Assembly: GCF_021917145.1 (NCBI RefSeq)
Contig: NC_061082.1
Coordinates: 11,816,237-11,880,236, forward strand
Direction of reading: 5' to 3'
DNA: 64,000 nucleotides
Source of the DNA: Hypomesus transpacificus
Lineage: Eukaryota; Chordata; Actinopteri; Osmeriformes; Osmeridae
Shown: positions 6,553 through 62,200 of the stretch, in pieces
Position numbering within the stretch: the first letter of the stretch is position 1
Layout of the letters: each line of letters starts with the position of its first letter
Notes under the pieces: model-generated
The model's input: the letters and a program-made list of their open reading frames with translations, nothing else
Told to the model about the DNA's origin: nothing
Databases searched by the model: none
Program-made: the position numbers and the translations under genes

Positions 6553-7906
6553 TCAAACCCCAGCCTTGATCTGGTTGTTGGGAGGGAGGGGTTTCCCCAG
6601 ATGGGTTCCTACAGTCAAGCCAAACTCTTGGAGTGCATGCTTTTTCTGAAGCTCTGGTTTAAGCTGGAAGCCATGCTCCCTGTCAAAACTATCCGAAGGG
6701 ACAAAGGTCAGCAGAGTTTCTCCTTGCAGCCCCTGAAGCCTGGTTCGCCAGAGCTCCAGCATTGTGGTGCGGGCTTCAGAGGTGATACAAGATGGAGCCC
6801 AGAAAATCTGAGGAGCCAGAACTTGAAAGCCACAGTAGTGAAGGATCCCATTCTACACAGGGAGAAATAGTACATGCATCAAATCAGCAAGTCTTCCAAA
6901 TCTCAAAGCAAAAAGGCATGACGCTCAGTAACTCCCACCTGTAGAGGCCACAGGGTTACATTCATGTCTCCATTGATGCCGTTGGAAGAGAACATGGACT
7001 CTTTAGAGCCAGTGGTGAAGGATAGCATGGCTTTCTTGTCCTGGGGAAAGGAAAGAGTTGTATGCATCAGTATAGACTAGCTTGTAGAATAGTTGAGTTG
7101 CTTAATCTCTGGAATAAGATGGACCATGGGAAAAAAGGTTTCACTACCTTGAAGATACCCTGGCTGTACCTCTTCTCTGAGGTAAAGGCATAGCCCAGAG
7201 TGAGCACACGGTCAATCCATCCCTTCATGATGGCAGGAACAGAAAACCAGTACATGGGGAACTGAGGACACAGCAAGTCAAATCACCAAATTAGGGTTAA
7301 AAACAACCAACACCATAAGACAGAAATGGTGTTTGTAATGCAACAACCTGGAAGATGATGATGTCCGCTTTGGTGAGTTTGCGGTGCTCTGCCATGATGT
7401 CATTAGAGAGCCGGCCCTCCTGCCAAGCTAGTTTGGTTTCTTCTGCATAACGGAAGTGCGTCGAGTCCTTCACCTCTCCTGGATGAAGGAGAAGAAAAAC
7501 TAATGTCAAGGAAAGCACCAAGAAGCAGTGTATAGCTTCCAACAAGCTAGGTCTGCTTACTCCGTCGAGCAGTTAAGACTGCTGCCTTACCTGTGATATC
7601 CTCTGCAGTGGCAACAGCTGTGAACTTCATACTGTAGAGGTCAGACACCTCTACCTTGCAGCCCTGTGCAGTCAGAACCTCAACAGTAGCATCTTTAGCT
7701 GCAGCATTGAATGAACCAGCACTCTGGTGGGCATACACGATCAGAACATTCTTGTTGACTGGAATAAAACAAGACTTAAAATCAGTTCCCTGACATCGTT
7801 ACACTGTTCAAAGCCCTGAACATGCTAGAAATCCTATGAAGACATCAAGTTGTTTCATCTTAAGCAAAGGCAAACCAAACATAAAAAAATATGACTACTC
7901 ACCCAT
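6553..7906 (-). CDS. nqo1: NAD(P)H quinone dehydrogenase 1-like, copy A, complete
   Basis: Cytosolic FAD enzyme that reduces quinones by two electrons, part of the antioxidant response. Exons leftward: 7903-7906 (ATG G), 7591-7758, 7348-7478, 7148-7261, 6939-7040, 6553-6852; 819 nt, 272 residues, close to the 274 of human NQO1. Visible parts: flavodoxin-like start [57 protein letters not shown], and an NQO1-type C-terminal extension ending [18 protein letters not shown], which NQO2 lacks. The residues that correspond to human Tyr155 and His161 are Phe (SMFS) and Asn (GING); Asn is also found there in NQO2. The AATAAA signal follows the stop by only about 7 nt. Copies B and C are close paralogues. 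Confidence 0.95.
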
Positions 7907-8000
7907 TGTTTCCTGTGTGGTTTCTGCAAGTAATGTTGGGCTGAATCGTAAATAACTTGACTGGCCAGACAACTCATACTTGCTCTGAGCTGAGGCTGCT

Positions 8001-8010
8001 GTTTTTATAG
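8001..8010 (-). promoter_or_regulatory. TATA box of nqo1 copy A
   Basis: CTATAAAAAC on the minus strand lies about 95 bases upstream of the ATG at 7906. The other two copies have the same element at equivalent places. A nearby GTCAGCA (maf half-site-like) is also shared, but I see no full antioxidant response element. Confidence 0.6.
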
Positions 8011-8286
8011 GCTACTGCTGACCTGTTCACGCTTGTTCATGCAGCACCCACTCACACAGCTGCTTATCAATCAGCAATCAGCTGATACTTGATTAAATCC
8101 ATCAAAGCCCTTTCTTTGGCCCACCACTTACTCAACTTCCGTGTAATCATTGACGGAACAATCAACTTAAAGTAATTACATTACTTAACGTTTTCTCTGA
8201 GTTATAAAAAAGTGTGCCAAGCATGGTTAAAGCTGGCTCATGTCGACCAAAAAAGTATCCTAACCCCAGGGACGTGCACACGCTAT

Positions 8287-30870: not shown

Positions 30871-31307
30871 GGGGCTTAATTGCTTGTTTAAATCAATCAG
30901 GGACTTGGCCAGTTACGAGAAAGTCATTAATTAGTACCATGGGTTGTCCAATAGGGAGTTCCTTAAGAAGTTTGGCAGGAAGGGGGTTCAAGAAGGCAGC
31001 TGGTGGTCAGAGGGATATCTAGTCCTTATGGATAACTTGTCTCAGGAAGAGCATTTCTCCCCAGTAAAATGTAATAATTGAGTTTACCAGACTGGGGTTC
31101 TGCAAATGTATAACAAGTTTCCTTCCCATTATTGGAGTAAGCCTGTCCAGGATCCAGTCTGAGAGTGAGATATAAAGCCACATCAGGTTCTTGATCACTA
31201 ACATAACATGCAAAAACTGCATGTCTAGAAACAGTCCACATTTGTAGGTATAATGCAAGTAAAACACAGGAGCCTGGATAGATTTGACACGTTTTTTATT
31301 TCAGGAC

Positions 31308-32890
31308 TCAAACCCCAGCCTTGATCTGGTTGTTGGGAGGGAGGGGTTTCCCCAGATGGGTTCCTACCGTCAATCCAAACTCTTGGAGTGCATGCTTTTT
31401 CTGAAGCTCTGGTTTAAGCTGAAAGCCATGCTCCCTGTCAAAACTATCCAAAGGGACAAAGGTCAGCGGAGTTTCTCCTTGCAGCCCCTGAAGCCTGGTT
31501 CGCCAGAGCTCCAGCATTGTGGTGCGGGCTTCAGCGGTGATACAAGATGGAGCCCAGAAAATCTGAGGAGCCAGAACTTGAAAGCCACAGTAGTGAAGGA
31601 TCCCATTCTACACAGGGAGAGAGTACATGCATCAAATCAGCAAGTCTTCCAAATCTCAAAGCAAAAAGGCATAAGGCTCAGTAACTCCCACCTGTAGAGG
31701 CCACAGGGTTACATTCATGTCTCCATTGATGCCGTTGGAAGAGAACATGGACTCTTTAGAGCCAGTGGTGAAGGATAGCATGGCTTTCTTCTCCTGGGAA
31801 AAAGGAAGAGTCGTATGAGTCAGTATAGACTAGCTTGTAGAATAGTTGAGTTGCTTAATCTCTGGAATAAGATGGACCATGGGAAAAAAGGTTTCACTAC
31901 CTTGAAGATACCCTGGCTGTACCTCTTCTCTGAGGTAAAGGCATAGCCCAGAGTGAGCACACGGTCAATCCATCCCTTCATGATGGCAGGAACAGAAAAC
32001 CAGTACATGGGGAACTGAGGACACAGCAAGTCAAATCACCAAATTAGGGTTAAAAACAACCAACACCATAAGACAGAAATTGTGTTTGTAATGCAACAAC
32101 CTGGAAGATGATGATGTCCGCTTTGGTGAGTTTGCGGTGCTCTGCCATGATGTCATTAGAGAGCCGGCCCTCCTGCCAGGCTAGTTTGGTTTCTTCTGCA
32201 TAACGGAAATGCGTCGAGTCCTTCACCTCTCCTGGATGAAGGACAAAACTAATGTCAAGGGAAGCACCAAGAAGCCGAGTATAGCTTCCAATAAGCTTGG
32301 GACACACCACAGGATAATCGGGCCGATTTCGGCCCTTTCGACAATCCTAGGTAACATATATCCCGATTATCTTGATAATTCCGCAGATAAAATCAGATGT
32401 TCCCTTGGTGTGAGGTGTGTTGAGTGTGACCACACTGTAGGAGCAAAACGGCTAAATCTAGGATTTTTTGTCCTCATGTTTGTGGTCTCGGTTTGAAAAT
32501 CTTATAAGATTAAAAGAAACGCAGTGTGTCCCCAGCATTAGTCTCCGTCGAGCAGTTAAGACTGCTGCCTCACCTGTGATATCCTCTGCAGTGGCAACAG
32601 CTGTGAACTTCATACTGTATAGGTCAGACACCTCTACCTTGCAGCCCTGTGCAGTCAGAACCTCAACAGTAGCATCTTTAGCTGCAGCATTGAATGAACC
32701 AGCATTCTGATGGGCATACACGATCAGAACATTCTTCTCGGCTGGAATATAACAAGACTTAAAATCAGTTCCCTTGACATGGTTACACTGTTCAAAGCCC
32801 TGAACATGCTAGAAATGCTATGAAGACATCAAGTTGTTTCATGTTAAGCAAAGGCAAACCAAACATTTGAAAATATGACTACTCACCCAT
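31308..32890 (-). CDS. nqo1: NAD(P)H quinone dehydrogenase 1-like, copy B, complete
   Basis: Same enzyme as copy A. Exons leftward: 32887-32890, 32574-32741, 32101-32231, 31901-32014, 31692-31793, 31308-31607; 819 nt, 272 residues, all open with GT/AG borders. The N-terminus reads [16 protein letters not shown] (copy A: MVNKN), and exon 5 starts EKKAM (copy A: DKKAM). SMFS and GING replace the human Tyr155 and His161 environment, as in copy A. Intron 2 is longer than in A and C because of a MITE (32299-32533). AATAAA follows the stop by about 7 nt. Likely functional; a TATA box lies upstream at 32986. Confidence 0.94.
32299..32533. mobile_element. MITE in intron 2 of nqo1 copy B
   Basis: The ends GGGACACAC and GTGTGTCCCC are inverted repeats. 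The 235-bp block is absent from intron 2 of copies A and C, which run directly from CAAGCTAGG to TCTCCGTCG-like sequence. The target duplication is unclear (AGC on both sides). The superfamily is not assigned. Confidence 0.75.
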
Positions 32891-36414: not shown

Positions 36415-37881
36415 TCAAACCCCAGCCTTGATCTGGTTGTTGGGAGGGAGGGGTTTCCNNNNNNNNNNNNNNNNNNNNNNNNNNNNNNNNNNNNNNNNNN
36501 NNNNNNNNNNNNNNNNNNNNNNNNNNNNNNNNNNNNNNNNNNNNNNNNNNNNNNNNNNAGGGGTTTCCCCAGATGGGTTCCTACCGTCAATCCAAACTCT
36601 TGGAGTGCATGCTTTTTCTGAAGCTCTGGTTTAAGCTGGAAGCCATGCTCCCTGTCAAAACTATCCAAAGGGACAAAGGTCAGCGGAGTTTCTCCTTGCA
36701 GCCCCTGAAGCCTGGTTCGCCAGAGCTCCAGCATTGTGGTGCGGGCTTCAGAGGTGATACCAGATGGAGCCCAGAAAATCTGAGGAGCCAGAACTTGAAA
36801 GCCACAGTAGTGAAGGATCCCATTCTACACAGGGAGAAATAGTACATGCATCAAATCAGCAAGTCTTCCAAATCTCAAAGCAAAAAGGCATGACGCTCAG
36901 TAACTCCCCACCTGTAGAGGCCACAGGGTTACATTCATGTCTACCATTGATGCCGTTGGAAGAGAACATGGACTCTTTAGAGCCAGTGGTGAAGGATAGC
37001 ATGGCTTTCTTGTCCTGGGGAAAGGAAAGAGTTGTATGCATCAGTATAGACTAGCTTGTAGAATAGTTGAGTTGCTTAATCTCTGGAATAAGATGGACCA
37101 TGGGAAAAAAGGTTTCACTACCTTGAAGATACCCTGGCTGTACCTCTTCTCTGAGGTAAAGGCATAGCCCAGAGTGAGCACACGGTCAATCCATCCCTTC
37201 ATGATGGCAGGAACAGAAAACCAGTACATGGGGAACTGAGGACACAGCAAGTCAAATCACCAAAGTAAGGTTAAAAACAACCAACACCATAAGACAGAAA
37301 TGGTGTTTGTAATGCATCAACCTGGAAGATGATGATGTCCGCTTTGGTGAGTTTGCGGTGCTCTGCCATGATGTCATTAGAGAGCCGGCCCTCCTGCCAA
37401 GCTAGTTTGGTTTCTTCTGCATAACGGAAGTGCGTCGAGTCCTTCACCTCTCCTGGATGAAGGAGAAGAAAAAACTGATGTCAAGGAAAGCACCAAGAAG
37501 CAGAGTATAGCTTCCAACAAGCTAGGTCTGCTTACTCCGTCGAGCAGTTAAGACTGCTGCCTCACCTGTGATATCCTCTGCAGTGGCAACAGCTGTGAAC
37601 TTCATACTGTAGAGGTCAGACACCTCTACCTTGCAGCCCTGTGCAGTCAGAACCTCAACAGTAGCATCTTTAGCTGCAGCATTGAATGAACCAGCACTCT
37701 GGTGGGCATACACGATCAGAACATTCTTCTCGGCTGGAATACAACAAGACTTAAAATCAGTTCCCTGACATCGTTACACTGTTCAAAGCCCTGAACATGC
37801 TAGAAATCCTATGAAGACATCAAGTTGTTTCATCTTAAGCAAAGGCAAACCAAACATTTGAAAATATGACTACTCACCCAT
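36415..37881 (-). pseudogene. nqo1: NQO1-like copy C: one-base insertion in exon 5, gap in exon 6
   Basis: Exons leftward: 37878-37881, 37566-37733, 37322-37452, 37122-37235, 36912-37014, 36415-36824 (the last includes 100 N). Exon 5 is 103 nt instead of 102: an extra A at about 36943 shifts the frame after SSNGING, giving RHECNPVAS. Everything else is as in copies A and B, and the N-terminus is MAEKN-type or similar. Exon 6 is interrupted by the gap, but its two parts (44 and 266 nt) share a 10-nt overlap and together make the normal 300 nt. The extra base could be a real inactivating change or a sequence error near a contig end, so pseudogene status is provisional. Confidence 0.75.
36459..36558. 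other. Assembly gap of exactly 100 N
   Basis: The gap lies inside exon 6 of nqo1 copy C. The left contig ends AGGGGTTTCC and the right contig begins AGGGGTTTCC, so the contigs overlap by 10 nt and probably no sequence is missing. Confidence 0.98.
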
Positions 37882-39812: not shown

Positions 39813-39885
39813 TGTAAGCTTCCAGAGACTAGATACCAGACAGGACCCAGAGAGACCAGACAGAAAACAAAGAGAGACCTGAATT

Positions 39886-41208
39886 ATGGAGACACATCAG
39901 TGTGACACCTGTGGGAAGAGCCTTTCCTCATCCAGTATCCTCAAGCAGCACATGATGATCCACACTGGAGACGAGCCCTACAATTGTGATCTCTGTGGAT
40001 ATAGTTTTACAACAAACAGCATTCTGAAACGCCACATGTATATCCACTCTGGAGAAAAGCCCTACAGTTGTGACCTCTGTGGTAAAACCTTTATCCTGTC
40101 TAGCCAATTGACAGTTCACCGCAGAATCCACACAGGAGAAAAGCTCTACATCTGTGACCTCTGCAGCTATAGTTGTACAACAAACAGCTGTCTGAAAAGC
40201 CACATGTATATCCACTCCGGAGAAAAGCCCTACAGCTGTGACTTCTGTGGTAAAACCTTGAGAACATCAAGCCAATTAACAATTCACAGCAGGATCCACA
40301 CCGGAGAGAAGCCCTATTTCTGTGACTTTTGTAATACATTTTTCTCCACCTCTGGTGGATTGAAGGAGCACAGCAAGATCCACACTGGAGAGAAGCCCTA
40401 CAGCTGTAACCTCTGTGGCTATAGTTGTACAACAAACGGCAGTCTGAAAAGCCACATGTATATCCACTCCGGAGAAAGACCTTACAGCTGTGACCTCTGT
40501 GGTAAAACCTTTAGCCGTGCTTCCCGTTTCAGAGATCACAGCAAGATCCACACTGGAGAGAAGCCCTACAGCTGTGACCTATGTGGTCAAACCTTTCGCA
40601 ACTCCGGAAATTTGAAAGTTCACAGGAGGAGCCACACTGAAGAAAAGCCCTACAACTGTGACCTCTGTGGTTATAGTTATAAAACAAACGGCAACCTGAA
40701 AATCCACATGTACATCCACTCCGGAGAAAAACCTTACAGCTGTGATCTCTGTGGTAAAACCTTTAGCCATTCTGGCCAATTGACAGTTCACCGCAGAATC
40801 TACACAGGAGAGAAGCCCTACTGCTGTGACCTCTGTAATAAAACCTTTAGCCAGGCAGGTACTCTCACTCTCCACAGGAGAATCCACACAGGAGAGAAGC
40901 CCTACAGCTGTGACCTCTTTGATAAAACCTTTAGCCGGGCAGGTACTCTCACTCTTCACAGCAGGGTCCACACAGGAGAGAAGCCCTACAGCTGTGACCT
41001 ATGTGATAAAACCTTTAGCCGGGCAGGTACTCTCACTCTCCACAGCAGAATCCACACAGGAGAGAACCCCTACAGCTGTGACCTCTGTGGTAAGACCTTT
41101 AGACAGACTGGCCATTTAATAGCTCACAGCAGGATCCACACAGGAGAGAAGCCCTACAGCTGTGACCTCTGTGGTAAGACCTTTAGAAGTTGGCAGTTTA
41201 ACCCATAG
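39886..41208 (+). CDS. Tandem C2H2 zinc-finger protein, 440 residues
   Basis: Probable nuclear DNA-binding protein; target unknown. It holds 15 full finger units and a cut-off sixteenth, nearly all joined by TGEKPY-type linkers. Fingers 2, 4, 7 and 10 form a subclass (CGYS/CSYS ... TTN ... HMYIHSGE), so a two- or three-finger block has multiplied. Finger 11 ends HRRIY (second His lost) and finger 13 has CDLF (second Cys lost), so both probably fail to bind zinc. No KRAB, SCAN or BTB domain is present. An in-frame TGA just before the ATG (ACC TGA ATT ATG) supports the start, unless a 5' exon is spliced in. The C-terminus SWQFNP is created by insertion of a MITE, with finger remnants beyond it. 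Confidence 0.9.
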   Translation: METHQCDTCGKSLSSSSILKQHMMIHTGDEPYNCDLCGYSFTTNSILKRHMYIHSGEKPYSCDLCGKTFILSSQLTVHRRIHTGEKLYICDLCSYSCTTNSCLKSHMYIHSGEKPYSCDFCGKTLRTSSQLTIHSRIHTGEKPYFCDFCNTFFSTSGGLKEHSKIHTGEKPYSCNLCGYSCTTNGSLKSHMYIHSGERPYSCDLCGKTFSRASRFRDHSKIHTGEKPYSCDLCGQTFRNSGNLKVHRRSHTEEKPYNCDLCGYSYKTNGNLKIHMYIHSGEKPYSCDLCGKTFSHSGQLTVHRRIYTGEKPYCCDLCNKTFSQAGTLTLHRRIHTGEKPYSCDLFDKTFSRAGTLTLHSRVHTGEKPYSCDLCDKTFSRAGTLTLHSRIHTGENPYSCDLCGKTFRQTGHLIAHSRIHTGEKPYSCDLCGKTFRSWQFNP

Positions 41209-48880: not shown

Positions 48881-50878
48881 ATGGACACCGAGTCCACTCA
48901 CTCTGGGTATTCCCACTCCAGTCGCTCCAACAGGTCCAACCGGCATGGGTAAGCCTTCTACTTTCTCCCTTTCTCGCTCTCTTATTCTATCCATCTTACT
49001 TCTGTCTCTGTATCTTGTACATCTATCTTACTTCTGTCTCTCTCTCTTCAACTCTCTATCTTACTTTCTTTCTCATATACTCTTTCTTTCTGTCCCCTTT
49101 CTTTCTCTTATGCTCTCTGTCTTACTTCAGTCTCTCCCTGTCTCTCCCTACTCTCTGTAGAGCGCCTGTACTTCTGTGTCTCTTTCTCTACTGCTTTTTC
49201 TATTCTCAGCTCTTTTCAGATACAGCTGGTTAAACATAGTTTGATATCTCGGCTCTGTGGTGTTTATTTATGAGTCAGTGGTGTGGTATCATAAGAGAAG
49301 CATTTGTCTCTACTAAGATGTGCACTTCAGTGTGTGTGCGTTTGTTTATAATTTAAGCCATGCATGTCTGTTGATTGAAAACAAATTAAAGCAACAGACT
49401 AAGAGAGAGAGTAGGAGAGAGTAGGAGAGAAGAGACCAAGAGAGAGAAGTAAAGAGTGGATTAGGGTCATCACAGCTGACTGCCTCTAACCTATTTTACG
49501 GGGAGGCTGCTGCCTGTTCAGTAAATTAAAAAGTAATTTTCTGTCTCCTCTCCTCTGCTCATCTGGTGGCATCTTCATTCTGTTCTTTTACTTCTCCCCT
49601 CTGTGTGTGTGTGTTTCTGTGTCAAGCGAGCGCAGTAGAGAGCGCCGTAAGCCCAGCAGTAAGGACAGCAGTCGTTCTGAGCGCTCTGTCACCATCAACC
49701 CCCCAGACACGCCCTCTCAGACCACGCCCACGCACAACTCTGAGCCCCTCCCAGGCGACTCAACAGCAGCCCCAGGAGAAGAGACTCAGGTACTAAATAA
49801 CATGGGAAACATTTAATCTTGATACAGTATGACTCGCCATAGGGTTATAAGATAGGAGGACTGTTAGCTTTAAGGGTGATACACATATGGGTAGAATAGG
49901 TGATGTAGGATGTGATTAGTTTGTCAAGCCCCGCCCCCTGAACCATTGATGAACTCTGTACTTACAGATCCCACAGCTGGGGTCAGGGTCATCATTATGG
50001 CAACCGGCTCATAATCGCCATGGTAACCCAGGGCCAAATAGGTCAGGGGATTAATATCAGTGTGGACCTTTGTAATCACATTGGGATACACTTGGTTGAA
50101 CAAAGTTGGTTTTACTGTCTGTAGGCCAATGTGTGTGTGTGTTCTGCTTTACTCTGCTCTGTTGTACTCTTTCCTGCAAGTTTATGTTCTCAAAATTGCT
50201 GTTTGTAAACAGTAACTGCTGTTTACAGAAATATTCCAGTTGTGTTAAAGGGATTGGTGTGTGTAACCAATGTGAATTGTTCAAACTCACTCCTCAGTCT
50301 AAACAAACAATACAGTCCACCCGCGCCAGCGAAAAGCTAGCTTTTTGTTGGCGTAGCAGGCTAGTAGTTGCACTTGCATGTGAGAGGTCCTGGGATTGAA
50401 TACCAGCGAGGGGAAAGCTCGGTAGGACTGACCAGCAGCGTGACTGCTTGTACTTGTACCCTGTTACATTAGCAGAGACACAACTGTTTCAAGGGATTGG
50501 TTTGTGTTAGCCAACATTGTTTTGAAGGACTGGTGAGTGTGTTAGTTGAGATATAGCTGTGTTGAGGGCCCGATGTGTGTTAGCTGGGATGTACTGTAAC
50601 AAAAATGTGCTTCTGATAATTATGAACTTAACAGGCTTCTACAGAAATCAACTTTTTTTTATCATCTTTTGGGCTTTTTTGAGCCTAATTCCTTTGACTT
50701 CAGGACTTTTGGATTAAGCCACTGAGAGTAAACTGAGATTTCATGGTTAGGGTTAGCAGCAATTAACTGGGTTTCTCCCTCTCCTCCATCTTGTTTCCTA
50801 ATGGCACATGTCATCAGTGGTGGGCCCATATGGCAAGGGGATGGCATTTTCTATAGGTGTCAAGCAGTGTTTGTTGGC

Positions 50879-50913
<35 letters not shown>

Positions 50914-52435
50914 TGGGGGATTGAAACAAGAAACTGTGTTTGGCTGTGTTATGGTCTGGCTAATGAAACTCCACTACCCGCAATAAGTCAGCATTCAGTC
51001 TCTTTATATTGTCATCTGATTGGACAAGGATGCAGTGGTTAAAGGTAAGGTATATGTACAAACACACACACACACATTTAAGCACAGACACACACACACT
51101 CACTCATTTCTCACACACAATCCAGTTTGCAGAGGAAACGTTGCAGTGAAGTGGAACAGATCAGATTTCTTTGGGTTTTTGACTGACTGATAGATGAGGA
51201 AGACAGGAATACATAGAGAACATCAGTAATAAGAGGATTAGGAACTGAGCCGAGCAGACAGACAGACAGACAGGCAGGCAGGCAGAAAGACATAGTCAGG
51301 GAGAAGATAGTTGCATCTAATCAGCTATGTTGGGCCCGCATAACATCCATGTTTGTAGTTATTCAGACTGCTACTGTCTGTGTGTTGGCGTTAGTGTGTC
51401 TGTATGTGTGTCCTCATCACTACCTGGTTATTATGAGCTGTCTGAGGCCTGTCATGCAGTATTACATCTATGGAGGCCATTCATATCTAGACTGGAGGGT
51501 AAAATGTAAAGCAAACATCTCTGTAAACCCTGTCGCAATTCAGTTGATATGTCTGTCTGTGTTTGAACAAGAGAGATGTCTACTGAATGCGTGAAAGATG
51601 AATCGATGCTGTAGATTTACTGTCGAGTTGTAGTTACAACATTGTTTTTCTTTTCCTCCTCCCCGTCAGGATGAGAACTGGGGGGAAACCACCACGGCCG
51701 TGACCGGGACGTCAGAGCTGAGTCTGTCCCAGGAGGAGGTTGTGGGCCTAGGGAAGGAAACTGAGGAGGACCGAGGGAAGGCCTGTCAGCGCTATGCTCC
51801 CCTGGCCTTGGGCCTCTCTCTTGTGCTGCTGGTCCTAGCCTCCCCCCTGGCCTTCCTGGTGCTCCCGGCTCTGCTTTGGCCCGACAGGCTTCATGCCTGT
51901 GGCTCAGCCTGTGAGGGTCTCTTCCTCTCCGTCTCCTTCAAGCTGCTCATCCTGCTCCTGGCCATTTGGGCCCTGTTCCTGCGGCCAGCGCGCGCCAGCC
52001 TGCCACGCGTGTGCGCTTTCAAAGCACTTCTTGCCACCCTCACGCTCCTGCTCATCCTCTCCTACTGGCTCTTCTACGGTGTACGCATCCTTGACGCGCA
52101 AGTAAGTGCTTATCGGATGTCTTGGACTTTGCGTGTTTGCGTGTGTCTACGTGTGTGCGTTTGCTTGTTGGCGAAGTGTGTGTTTGTGTGTCCCAACGCC
52201 CTGCCGTGTGTGTGTGTGTGACAGGATGAGGACTACCAGGGAATTGTCCAGTTTGCTGTGTCTCTGGTGGACTCTCTGCTGTTCCTCCACTACCTGGCTA
52301 TTGTGCTGCTGGAAATCAGGCAGCTGCAGCCGTGTTACAGCGTGTGTGTCATCCGCTCCACCGATGGGGAGACCCGCCACTACAACCTTGGACGGCTCAG
52401 GTAGCACATGCGCACTGACACAGTCACACACTAAC

Positions 52436-52473
<38 letters not shown>

Positions 52474-55400
52474 TGCCTTGATGTGGTGGATCATGGCTAC
52501 AGGCTGCCCTCAGGCGAGGGACAACCGGAGGGGGAAAAGCAGATAACTAGTTTCTATGGCCCTGTGGGCGTGGTCTGAGAGGGCGTGTCTGGGGGGTTGA
52601 TGGTGACAGAGCGCTCAGAACGACTGCTGTCCTTACTGCTGGGCTTACGGCGCTCTCTACTGCGCTCGCTTGACACAGAAACACACACACACACGGAGGG
52701 GAGAAGTAAAAGAACAGAATGAAGATGCCACCAGATGAGCAGAGGAGAGGAGACAGAAAATTACTTTTTAATTTACTGAACAGGCAGGCAAGGGTTGTAT
52801 AAACCTTCCTGAATGTGTGTGTGTGTGTTCTTAGTGTTGCAGCTCCCTGCACTCGTTTGTCATGCTTATTAGACTAATAAGCGTTTCTTCTACTGCGTAT
52901 CAACATACACATTTGCGGTCAATGTTACAGAGTCTTGTGGTATAATAGTTGTTCATCCAGAAATTGAGGGGTTGTTAATTGTGCTGTTCTGCACAACCAA
53001 CCTTGCAGAAACAACATACCTCAATTGGAGAGTGCTTCAGTGATGGCAGAGCACACACGCATACAAACAGAGCCCCAGCTTGTAGACTTGGAGGCTTGTG
53101 TCATGGGCGGGTGTCAATGATGAATTTACCTCATTACCTAGCATACACCAGCACAGTCTCTTTCTCAACTCTACAGTTAGAAGGGGGGTGGTTCTTATAA
53201 AGGGTGTGGAAAGGAGGGGAAAATCTCAAGGGCTTGATGGGTCAGTATGTTTTTTAACATGCCTGTCTTCTGAGTTTGGGAAAGAAAGCTGTTCATCATT
53301 AATAATTTATTGAGAATTGAGTTCTTAATGATATCCCCCCCTGTCTCTTCCTGTCTCTATTCCTGTCTCTCTTCCTGTCTCCCTGTCTCTCCTGTCTCTC
53401 TCCAGTATTCAGAAAGCAGCTCTATCCCTCCTGGAGTTCTACTACCGGGATTTTCCTCTCCACAACCCCGCTGTTCTTTCTGCCTCTAAGCACCGCGCTG
53501 CCAAACACCTGGCCGGCCTCAAGATCTACTCTGTTGAAGGTGTGGTATTCTAGTATTCTTCAGACCTCAGACATTCATCTGCTCTTTACATTTACTAATG
53601 TTCTGTACTAGTTCTCTTTTCACCCTCCCTCATTTACTTGTTTCACCATCTCATTGTGGTTTTGTCTCTTTTCGATCTCTTTCCTCCTGCTATCAGCCTT
53701 TAAAAACAAACTGAGAACATACCTGTCAAACAGTAAGTCCTGATAGGTATCACCAGCATCCATCTTTACCCCCCTCTTGCTCTCTTCACAGCACTTAAAC
53801 TCAGGAAGTAACTGCGCGCATCTCATGCATCACTTCCCCACCATCGTCCCTCACTCCCTCCATACGCCCCCAACACTCTGCACAATGCACAGATATGGTC
53901 TACTGAAGCACACGCAGAAGCACACATGCATACACCCAACAAAGTGACTTCTTAGCCATGCATCTGCCTCCTTCCTTGATTAATTCACTAGCATTTGCGG
54001 TTACAAGGTTTCCAAACTGGCCCTGGAGCATTTGTGGTCGTTTAAGGGTTTGGTAGAACCTGGTTAGGGAGCTGCTTTGTGATGTAAAGGGATGTGCATG
54101 CTGGGATGGATGGCATCCTTGCTGGTCCTACCCTCCCCCACATGAAAGTACAGCAGCTCAGTGGACTTTCTACCCGCTAATAATTCATAACGGTTGGGCT
54201 TATTCTCTCCCCTCTCTCAATCTTTCACATTTTCTCTGTCTCTCTCTATCACAGTAGGATTCAGAAGGCTTATGTTTGACATGCACACAGATATTCACAC
54301 GCAAATGCTACCTCTTTAGGTGCTTGGGCTGTATGTCATCAACAACATTTGATCAAACTGGTACCTCAGTCTTTGAAGTATCTCTGTCTCTGTCATGAAT
54401 ATTTATATGATCCACAAATGTAAGAATTGTTTTAATAATTTGTTATCTTTAGATATACCTTTATGCATTTCTACTTCATTGACGATAGTGACAGAAAAGG
54501 TGTAAGTGAGAAAGGGAATGACATGCAGTAGAGGTCCTGGGCCGCTCTGATAAAGCCTAAGCCTATGTGGTATGCGTTTTTGAAATGTATGCGCCCCATG
54601 AAAGTATTATTTGAACGTGATGAAATTAAACAAAACGTTGAGTTCTGAGTTCACATACATATACAGTACTGTACAATGGCCCTCATTCACTAAACTAGGC
54701 ATGAAACATTAGTGGTTTTCAGCCACCACCTTTCTTAAGCTGTGATTGGCAAGATGAGAACGTTTTATGAACCACACGAGCCCTGTCTTAAAATAATTTC
54801 TGCACTCGGGTTCTCGCTGAGGTTGATAAATGAGGGCTATTGACATCAATACAGGAATAAGACCTGTGACTAGGTCTATCTACCTGCTGAGGGTTTAAGT
54901 GCCTTGCTTAAGGGCACAAAGACACTGTATTCACGCCTATGTGTTCCCTGATCCTCCAGGCCCTGATAACTCTGGAAGCCCAGTTGGGGGGCAGGCAGCG
55001 GGCTCCCACTCCGGGGGGGCGCAGTCGCGTGCCATGATCACGGCAGCAGCCAGACAAAGAGATGCCAGCCACAACGAGCTCTACTACGAAGAGGCCGACC
55101 ACAATAGACGAGTACGGAAACGTCGAGCCAGGTGAGAGAGGAAGAGTAGAGCACAGGACGGGACAGGAGAGGAGATGTTATCTGAACTTTGTACGTGTGT
55201 GTGTGGGTGTTGTGTGATTGCCAGACTGGTGGTGGCAGTGGAGGAGGCGTTTACGCACGTCCGCCGCCTGCGTCAGGAAGAAAAGCGGGCGTCGCCTTCT
55301 GAGGTGATGGACGTGCGGGAGGCTGCCCTTGCCATCTTCCCCTCCATGGCACGCGCCCTGCAGAAGTATCTCCGCGCCACCAGGAGACAGCACTGCCACA

Positions 55401-55889
55401 GTATGGACAGCATCCAAAGACACCTGGCTTTCTGCCTCACCCACAACATGAGCCCCAAGGTAAACCCTGTCTTCTACACCCTATACAGAGTACGGCATCT
55501 GGTCACAGCCTGTGTAAAATCACTGAATCCAAACACAGTTGTTATAGATATATTTATATATTTCATTTTGATTATTAAATTGTATTTTGAATCTAAGAAT
55601 AACTGTGTGCGAAACTGGGTTTGTTCAGGCCTTTCTCGCGGCCTACCTAGCCCCAGGTCCGACCTTACAATATGGATCAGAGCGCTGGATGGCTGGCCAG
55701 TGGACCTTGGTGAGTGATGCTGCGGTGACCAGTGGTCTGAAGGATGGGACGGAGTTCCTGCTGCGCTGTCTGGACTTCAGTCTGGCCATCACCGTCAAGA
55801 ACATCCCATACATCCGTCTCACTGAAGAGTATATAGACCCCAAGTCCCACAAGTTCACTCTGCTACTCCAATCAGAAACTTCTGTCTGA
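48881..55889 (+). CDS. vangl1: Vang-like planar cell polarity protein 1, complete, eight coding exons
   Basis: Four-pass membrane core component of the planar cell polarity (Wnt/PCP) complex, partner of Prickle, Dishevelled and Celsr. Exons: 48881-48948, 49627-49789, 51670-52101, 52225-52400, 53406-53539, 54960-55131, 55225-55459, 55629-55889; 1641 nt, 546 residues (human VANGL1, as I recall, 524). It opens [20 protein letters not shown], with a Ser-rich phosphorylation region and [12 protein letters not shown], then [16 protein letters not shown]. Membrane spans are at [58 protein letters not shown] and [19 protein letters not shown]. The cytoplasmic half has [20 protein letters not shown] and [12 protein letters not shown] and ends LQSETSV, a PDZ-binding tail. 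Wording such as LSIQKAAL and FPSMARAL favours VANGL1 over VANGL2. Intron 4 holds an inverted copy of exon 2. Casq2 lies tail-to-tail downstream. Confidence 0.96.
49790..51669 (+). other. Intron 2 of vangl1
   Basis: No other gene is seen. It contains a (GT)n tract at about 50881-50912 and CA/CAGA repeats around 51060-51110 and 51255-51290. Confidence 0.7.
52437..52470. repeat. Run of 34 C in vangl1 intron 4
   Basis: Uninterrupted C tract 36 bases after the donor of exon 4 and about 95 bases before the inverted copy of exon 2. Long homopolymers like this are a common place for assembly or read errors. Confidence 0.95.
52564..52786 (-). repeat. Inverted copy of vangl1 exon 2 and its 5' flank
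   Basis: This is the reverse complement of 49511-49731, about 220 bp, with only a CT-to-CC change and a 2-bp difference in the GT repeat. It includes the last 116 bp of intron 1 with the acceptor and the first 105 bp of exon 2 ([20 protein letters not shown] on the minus strand). The match stops inside exon 2 at ACCACGCCCAC. It lies in intron 4 in antisense orientation. Confidence 0.95.
53540..54959 (+). other. Intron 5 of vangl1
   Basis: No separate gene recognised. Pyrimidine-rich patches near 53630-53690 and 54195-54255; otherwise featureless. Confidence 0.6.
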
Positions 55890-59249: not shown

Positions 59250-62200
59250 TTATTCATCATCATCATCATCGTCCTCATCATCATCCTCATCATCATCATC
59301 GTCCTCATCATCGTCATCGTCATCATCGTCATCATCGTCATCATCGTCTTCCTCAACATCATCATCTTCGTCGTCTTCATCCTCCTCTTCCTCATCGTCT
59401 TCATCATTGTTATTGGAATTATCATCTTCATCCTCTTCATCGTCGTCGTCATCATCCTCGTCGTCATCATCGTCATCATCGTCATCATCTTCATTGTCGT
59501 CATCCTCAGTGTTGACCTTGCCCGAGAGGACGTCTTCTATCCAGTTCTCCAGCTCCTGAGCACTTGGCAGATCGTCCTCATCATCCATTTCCATCCATAT
59601 GCTGTCCGCCTGCACACAGACACATTGGCCAGGGGCCAGTTCCAAGGGTTAGTTATAAGTCAGTGTAAGACCGGTGGTGTTGGCTGCCTAGGTGAGTGTT
59701 AGGTGTGGACTTACATCGCTGACATTGACCACTCCAATCTGAGGTCTGAAAAGGTCCACCTTGAAGGTCTTCTCCCAGTAGGGGATCAGCTGAGGGGACA
59801 CAGCAACAAGACATACAGTCACACCTGGCCAGACAGCTATAATGGCAAGATAATCAAATATTGTGTGTGTATGTATCTGTGTGCGTGTGTGTCTGAGTGT
59901 GTGTTCTTGCACCAGAGGGAAGTCATCAGGGTCAATCCAGATGATGCTGAGATCTGGGTGGTGTGTGTTGTCTCTAGCCACCTCCTTCAGGATATCTAGG
60001 AACTCATAACCATCTGACAAGACAGGACAGAACAGGAGGGGACATGACAGGGTAGGACATGACGGGAAAGGAGGATAGGACAGGAGGGGATAGGAAAGGA
60101 CATGACAAAGCAGGACAGATCAGGACAGAAGAGGAGAAATAGATCTATAGATCTGCCTATCAGTACCTTTCAGTTATACCAGGTCAATGTTGTAGATGAT
60201 GCTTCAGATATGATTTATTACCAGGGTCTTCCTCTTCTGCAAAGGCCACGATGTGAATCCCATCTATATCATCCTCCTAAGAAAAAGATAACATTATGAG
60301 TGAGTTTGTCTGGTTTGATGGTGGGTGAATTCTGTCTAAAAGATTCTGTCTATAAGACTCTTACCCAGGTCTCAAACATGTCCTCGGCTCGCAGCTTCCT
60401 CAGAGTGGGTCTGAAAACCAACACAGACAGGAACACTCTAATGAGGAAACTAGTACTGAAAATGACTATCAGCTCAAGTCCCTAACTAGACTTTCATGTA
60501 CTTTGTGATATGTGAACCATGCCATTCTGCACCATTCTGGAGCTCCACCACGTCTTGCATCCTCTTCTTCCCACCATCTCTCCTCCCCTTCCCTCGCTCC
60601 CTTCCTCCTTCTTACCTCCTATGCTGGGTGATGAAGGCCACTAGCTCCTCCTCAGAGTTGGGTTTGTCTGGGATGGTGACTGGCTCCTCCATAAAGGGCT
60701 CATAGAAGTCCACCTCGTTCATCTTCAGGGTCAGCTCCTTGGCCACCTGAAACAGCACAGACAGCCAAACCAAGATCACCCCTCTGTTCATGGCCTTGGG
60801 TTGCCTGTCTACTCATATGCCAGAGAGTACAGGAGGCCATAGGAGATCTCCATGTCTAAAGGTTTGTAGATGTAAATCAGAAATCCTGTACCTCATTTGT
60901 CTTTATATTTGATGTATGTATATGATATTATTGCTATATAGATTCAACTATAGCTTCAGCTTGAGACATGAAAAGACGTACAGATTTTTGAAACGTGGCA
61001 AAGAATTTGATGTAGGGCTGGAACTTCTCTGCTGCCTCCTTGAAGGAAAGAAAGTCTGGATGAGATAAGAGAAGAGGGAGAGCAGAAGGAAGAATAGGGA
61101 AATAAAAGGATTGGATGTGGAGGAAAGGAAATGATAGGACAGAAAATGAGTGCAGAAGATGAGTGCTCGATAACAAAAATGACATACATTTACTATATAT
61201 TTCAGGTGGTGTGTTCTCTCATCATTCATAGCAAGCATGTGTGTGTTTGCTCTGGCCTTTAGGTAAATGTATTTGACACATCAGAGAACTTAAATAGCTG
61301 AACTCTGACCACTTATTCTAATCCCCTATAGTAAGATTTGACGTAAGCCTCCAGACACCAACACAGTCAGTTGTGACATGGAAGTAAAAGGCCCTCGCAG
61401 CTGCGTGGAGCAGGATAAAAATGGATCTGTAAATCCCTGAAGATTATGAAGTTTAATGTGCCCTGTTTATCATAGAGGGTACCAGCCAAAGTCCCACACT
61501 GGTTATTCCCCAACACAGCACATGGGTATGCTATGGACCCTTAGACCATATTGACACCATAACTCACACAACACACAAACACAAACAGGCCCTGACACAC
61601 AAACACACACCAACATATACTGTACACATACATACACTCTGCTGCTCTCTCTCTGACACACACACAGACACACACTGCCAACGTTCTTTCGAATTCATAC
61701 CCTCAGATACTCACGCTCAGAGTCCTCGTTCTTGAAGTATCCTATGAGGCGAATGTCCTCGTCCATTCGGTCAAAAGCCCTCAGTTCTAAAGCATTCCCT
61801 ATCACCTCCACTGGATCCTCCAACAGCTACAGGGAGAGAGACAGAGATAAAGAGGGTTGGAACTGGGATGGAAAATGAGAGACTAAGAGATAGAGAAGGC
61901 AAGAAGAGCCCCAAAAAAAGAGATGCATACAGGGAGTCTCCCCCCCCCCCCGTCCCCAAACCAAGGACAGCATCTGACAGTAACTGATCCAGGGTCCAAA
62001 ACTCACGTCCAGAAGGAACTCCACTATGGTATCCGCTGAGAGCAAGCCATCAAACTCGATCACGTGGTCAGCCTTAAACACGTACACACTGCCCTCCTCC
62101 ACCAGGCCTGTGGTCAGGGATGAGGACTCAGGGGTCAAACACACATGGTTTACAGCCCAGTTACCGACAACAAGCTCAGTGACAAATAGTTGTAAGCATC

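Follow-up and report, generated by a model that had tools for sequence, protein, structure and literature searches.

The fourth coding intron of vangl1 harbors a nearly perfect inverted copy of a segment which is located about 2.8 kb upstream in the same gene and which spans the boundary between coding intron 1 and coding exon 2. With a probability of roughly 0.6, this copy represents a real, recent, and single templated insertion, i.e., the product of a template switch or of a break-repair patch.

The copy and its source in vangl1

The window, i.e., the whole stretch of DNA analysed here, comprises 64 kb (G000:C23:11816237-11880236) of a 437-Mb assembly of 376 contigs. Judging by its predicted product, the host gene of the copy is vangl1: the gene model includes eight coding exons separated by GT-AG introns and an intact frame of 546 codons, the translation of which matches Pfam Strabismus (2.4e-229). 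The best PDB match is Vang-like protein 1: two sequences of Vang-like 1 score 728.2 bits, and one of Vang-like 2 scores 661.5. The numbering below counts coding exons; on this count, the exon and intron numbers used in the earlier note are right. Downstream of vangl1 and tail to tail with it, calsequestrin-like frames were found at 59250-60812 (minus strand), with Pfam Calsequestrin matched in both frames tested (59688-60119 and 60612-60812) and a D/E-rich frame alongside them at 59250-59648 (minus strand); VANGL1 and CASQ2 are neighbors in the human genome as well. The features relevant to the copy are as follows.

48881..55889, plus strand: vangl1 coding region including the stop (intact 546-codon frame, stop placed by the open frame that ends at 55889)
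48881-48948, 49627-49789, 51670-52101, 52225-52400, plus strand: coding exons 1-4 (gene model)
53406-53539, 54960-55131, 55225-55459, 55629-55889, plus strand: coding exons 5-8 (gene model)
55887-55889, plus strand: stop codon (end of the open frame)
49627..49789, plus strand: coding exon 2, 163 nt, frame-shifting if skipped (gene model)
49510..49731, plus strand: source (template) segment (self-BLAST, pairwise alignment, gene model)
52401-53405, plus strand: coding intron 4 (gene model)
52437..52470, plus strand: run of 34 C, 36 nt into intron 4, a possible fork-stalling tract
52471..52563, plus strand: spacer of 93 nt between the poly-C and the copy (assembly search)
52564..52787, minus strand: inverted copy in coding intron 4 (self-BLAST, 99.1%, 0 substitutions, 2-nt gap)
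52788..53330, plus strand: right part of intron 4, beyond the copy (assembly search)

The self-BLAST of the window aligned 52564-52787 (minus strand) as the reverse complement of 49510-49731 (plus strand) over 224 columns, including 222 aligned bases, no mismatches, and a single gap (99.1%, E = 2.65e-109), which is far beyond chance. According to the pairwise alignment, the sole gap consists of two bases: the copy, if read in the sense direction, possesses an extra CG where a TG run begins. The distance between the two arms is 2832 nt. The source comprises the final 117 nt of coding intron 1 (49510-49626, with the acceptor AG at 49625-49626) followed by the initial 105 nt of coding exon 2, which is 163 nt long. 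In the copy, which begins 163 nt past the exon 4 donor, the exon part occupies 52564-52668 and the intron part 52669-52787; hence, it carries the exon-2 acceptor and 64% of the exon but lacks the donor. The earlier note had described exactly this arrangement, i.e., a near-identical inverted copy in intron 4, 2.8 kb downstream, covering the acceptor and most of exon 2, and its coordinates turned out to be right to within one base.

The complete lack of substitutions is also in line with the suggestion, made in the same note, that the copy is very young. With zero differences across 222 sites, divergence has a 95% upper bound of about 1.35% (3/222); this bound would be about 2% if the CG gap conceals both a slip and a substitution. 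Assuming that both copies evolve at a neutral rate of about 5e-9 per site per year, the age of the copy would be below approximately 1.4 million years, a bound to be read with nearly half of the source being exon under constraint. The likeness of copy and source is about that of two alleles in many animals; therefore, the copy may still be polymorphic.

Flanks, junctions, and the genomic neighborhood

The sequences flanking the copy were searched against the assembly, with simple repeats skipped; the match counts are lower bounds. The query covering 52380-52850 returned at least four matches, namely itself, the source, a 79% match on contig C56 to the poly-C edge and the spacer, and a 79% match on contig C12 to exon 2, the latter probably representing vangl2. 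The spacer alone had at least two matches, i.e., itself and the same relative on C56 (G000:C56:415013-415092, 79% over the 80 nt of 52467-52546). Since this single relative is diverged, the spacer is taken as old intron sequence lying outside the young insertion. The right flank (52784-53330) matched at least itself, and nothing else was returned; a near-identical source for either the spacer or the right flank was not found elsewhere in the assembly, nor did a second haplotype contig carrying the right flank turn up. A chain of several young templates is accordingly unsupported, as the spacer lacks a near-identical source and has just the one 79% relative. The sole N gap of the window (36459-36558) is far from the copy; it sits among repeats, the 106 bases preceding it are identical to 31246-31351, and the bases following it are 96-97% like 6587-8265 and 31342-32300.

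The junctions were inspected by a search for direct and inverted words shared by 52440-52580 and 52775-52900, both of which reach into the copy. No direct repeats longer than 6 nt occur between these stretches; two direct words attain this length, but neither sits at both junctions. By eye, no shorter target-site duplication is apparent in the letters flanking the copy, and homopolymers of A or T reaching 10 nt are absent near it. The bases flanking the copy do not match those flanking the source on either side: microhomology with the source flank amounts to 0 bp at the left junction, and the right junction needs the empty allele to be judged. Two inverted 6-mers were detected, one of them (52786-52791) spanning the right junction and having its partner (52473-52478) beside the poly-C, with about four inverted 6-mer pairs expected by chance in this search. 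Overall, the junction sequences argue against a transposon-type insertion, and microhomology is without clear support.

The rarity of such pairs was assessed in 264 kb, i.e., in the window and in 200 kb of contig C1 (C1:5000001-5200000), for inverted pairs of at least 80 bp and at least 80% identity, less than 10 kb apart, with E up to 1e-10 and the dust filter on. Two pairs were revealed: the vangl1 pair and C1:5137643-5139307, the latter consisting of terminal inverted repeats (94.6% over 224 columns) which enclose a transposase-like open frame of 358 residues; we take this element to be of the Tc1 type. Exact inverted words of 20 nt or longer and less than 5 kb apart added, beyond the blocks of both pairs, only one 20-nt and one 21-nt pair. 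Between the arms of the vangl1 pair lie the remainder of exon 2 and the whole of exons 3 and 4. Given that ordinary vangl1 exons are enclosed by the arms, that the source straddles an exon boundary, and that a target-site duplication was not found, a transposon origin was rejected; a processed retrocopy is ruled out by the intron sequence within the copy. Elsewhere in the window, an open frame of 441 codons (39883-41208, plus strand) displays C2H2 zinc-finger-like repeats with a period of 84 bp, the motif being recognized by eye. A scan for bacterial promoters and terminators (0 promoter-like and 1 terminator-like) was uninformative here, and a pattern search of viral contigs gave 0 matches.

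The poly-C was put in the same context. The copy starts 93 nt from the run of 34 C, close to the 95 bp or so given in the earlier note. The 264 kb contain 18 C/G runs of 15 nt or more (4 in the window and 14 in the 200 kb of C1), so the 34-C run itself is unremarkable in the region surveyed; six of the runs reach at least 30 nt. Positions within 93 nt of a C/G run make up about 1.3% for runs of at least 15 nt and about 0.4% for those of at least 30 nt. This nearness was noticed after the fact and is, at most, suggestive. Beside 17 of the 18 runs, there is no such inverted copy. The idea of the poly-C as a special hazard is weakened by this count, since a local inverted copy which measures 80 bp or more and is not part of a transposon adjoins only one run in 18. 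Although the sequence is A+T richer, runs of at least 10 nt are mostly C/G in both regions: 13 C/G vs 2 A/T in the window and 34 C/G vs 19 A/T in C1:5000001-5200000, the latter with runs of up to 45 C.

Origin of the copy

The most economical account of these observations is a single copy-and-paste event. In the putative sequence of steps, a replication fork or a broken end would have been processed in intron 4, near the 34-C run, which may have stalled the fork. A free 3' end would then have been extended on a template of the opposite sense about 2.8 kb off in the same gene, copying some 222 nt over the boundary of intron 1 and exon 2, and the extended end would have rejoined intron 4, leaving an inverted dispersed copy and an intact source. 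This template was not spliced mRNA, because the copy includes intron sequence. The mechanism, the role of the poly-C, and the age of the copy are all inferred. The copy-and-paste structure with both the source and the reading frame intact speaks in favor of a templated insertion, as does the fact that the only other local inverted pair in 264 kb encloses a transposase-like frame; counting against it are the reach of about 2.8 kb, the lack of clear microhomology with the source flanks, and the post hoc link to the poly-C.

As a probable templated insertion, the copy belongs to a known kind of event. PMC8421209 describes MMBIR-type insertions as inverted copies of a nearby template, searched for with the template within 100 bp and with a signature including microhomology at the junction. 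The vangl1 copy is like these in being inverted, in having a nearby template, and in leaving the source intact. As in MMBIR/FoSTeS-type insertions, the template locus is preserved and the copied segment is duplicated elsewhere; the template is close and inverted, although with 2832 nt between the arms it is "near" only loosely, in excess of 100 bp. The copy differs from the events of PMC8421209 in the distance (about 2.8 kb vs 100 bp) and in showing no clear microhomology. Short-range template switching in great apes, according to PMC7954356, involves tens to hundreds of nucleotides; the four-point mutations outlined there share with the vangl1 copy the reverse-oriented copying, the return to the original strand, and the inverted repeat left behind, but they are modelled over tens to hundreds of nucleotides, in contrast to 222 nt taken from about 2.8 kb off.

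Another related group is that of class 2 templated sequence insertion polymorphisms, characterized in PMC5110952 by features of end joining and by the lack of a target-site duplication and of poly(A). The vangl1 copy is likewise templated, with no target-site duplication found and no poly(A) tail; the class 2 insertions stem from distant templates, with an RNA intermediate argued for, whereas the source in vangl1 is 2.8 kb away. Compared to these accounts, the copy thus has a longer reach than the events of PMC8421209 and PMC7954356 and a nearer template than those of PMC5110952. The small inverted triplication (SIT), as presented in PMC13334657, includes an inverted piece (median 160 bp) of a length similar to that of the vangl1 copy, together with two direct duplications that flank this piece and a spacer of roughly 30 bp. 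Direct duplications of this kind are absent beside the vangl1 copy, where the right flank matched only itself and the spacer only itself and its 79% relative on C56; on the basis of that account, an SIT was rejected. Among the matches listed (titles and abstract starts), there was no close published case of an inverted exon copy in an intron.

The principal alternative is an artefact of assembly or library preparation, which the earlier note held to be plausible: an inverted piece of exon 2 would have ended up in intron 4 through a read that was chimeric or had switched strands, or through an error at the poly-C. Reads often fail at poly-C, and the 34-C run is just 93 nt away; the near-identity of copy and source, as well as the fact that the structure is known from one assembly, fit this explanation, too. 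On the other hand, sequence without a near-identical match elsewhere lies both between the poly-C and the copy and past the copy, and both ends of the copy are internal junctions, whereas a fold-back read would be expected to give adjoining arms that run on. The CG present in the copy is absent from the source (it might, though, belong to a source allele), the N gap is nowhere near, and the frame of vangl1 is intact. Moreover, in the 200 kb of C1, 14 C/G runs reaching 15 nt or more were assembled with no such copy adjoining. The bounded flanks, the departure from a fold-back structure, the CG difference, and the ordinariness of C/G runs weaken the artefact explanation to an unlikely one, still with an appreciable share of the probability.

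An RNA-templated patch, in which unspliced vangl1 pre-mRNA would have been reverse-transcribed and used to close a double-strand break within vangl1 itself, appears improbable. The copied piece crosses an intron/exon boundary and stems from the same transcription unit as its host intron, and a target-site duplication was not found, as in class 2 events, but the sequence does not discriminate an RNA template from a DNA one, and the insertions of PMC5110952 derive from distant regions rather than from a site at 2.8 kb.

Possible consequences for the vangl1 transcript

By default, the copy is expected to be a nearly neutral intronic insertion, the RNA of which can form a hairpin with exon 2 before the upstream intron is spliced. 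In line with the earlier proposal that the primary transcript can fold exon 2 onto its complement, the predicted MFE fold of 48881-53600 pairs 221 of the 222 bases in the source segment with the copy, a prediction that concerns the naked full-length transcript, while splicing of intron 1 may precede the synthesis of the copy. The predicted energy of this fold is -1836 kcal/mol with the copy vs -1457 without it, part of the change reflecting the transcript being 224 nt shorter. Masking of exon 2, its skipping, or circular RNA formation via such a hairpin, as put forward in the earlier note, is conceivable. If the 163-nt exon 2 were skipped, exon 1 would be joined to exon 3 in a shifted frame, which meets a stop after 33 codons, 10 codons beyond the new junction; therefore, strong skipping should be expected to be harmful and selected against rather than to act as a mild isoform switch.

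Least probable of all the readings is that the copy has been kept for function, so that the hairpin would tune vangl1 by causing exon 2 to be skipped, exons 3-4 to be back-spliced, or the RNA to undergo A-to-I editing. The nearly complete pairing of the source, the predicted source/copy duplex of -473.8 kcal/mol, and the fold energy lower by 379 kcal/mol (partly due to the 224 nt of extra length) would suit this notion, and reverse complementary matches are reported in PMC8330042 to favor both back-splicing and exon skipping. Yet exon-2 skipping shifts the frame, near-identity is expected from youth alone, and, because about 2.8 kb of transcription separates exon 2 from the copy, splicing of intron 1 may come first.

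A templated insertion of the preferred kind may also be envisaged, at very long odds though slightly better ones than retention for function, as a cis-antisense element which vangl1, a planar-polarity gene, would have acquired and which is still segregating: a hairpin combined with slow splicing of intron 1 would lead to ADAR editing or to frameshifted or circular products. Should this be true, the near-perfect hairpin of 222 bp over the exon-2 acceptor would make vangl1 a natural case in which an inverted copy silences the exon that it came from.

If the copy is an artefact, it is a warning that assemblies can show inverted exon copies near poly-C. If it is real, it represents a clean and dateable germ-line inverted templated insertion in an animal, located beside a long C tract. 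A splice site and a coding exon would then face their near-perfect complement in the same transcript, offering a natural test of the tolerance for long intramolecular double-stranded RNA over an exon.
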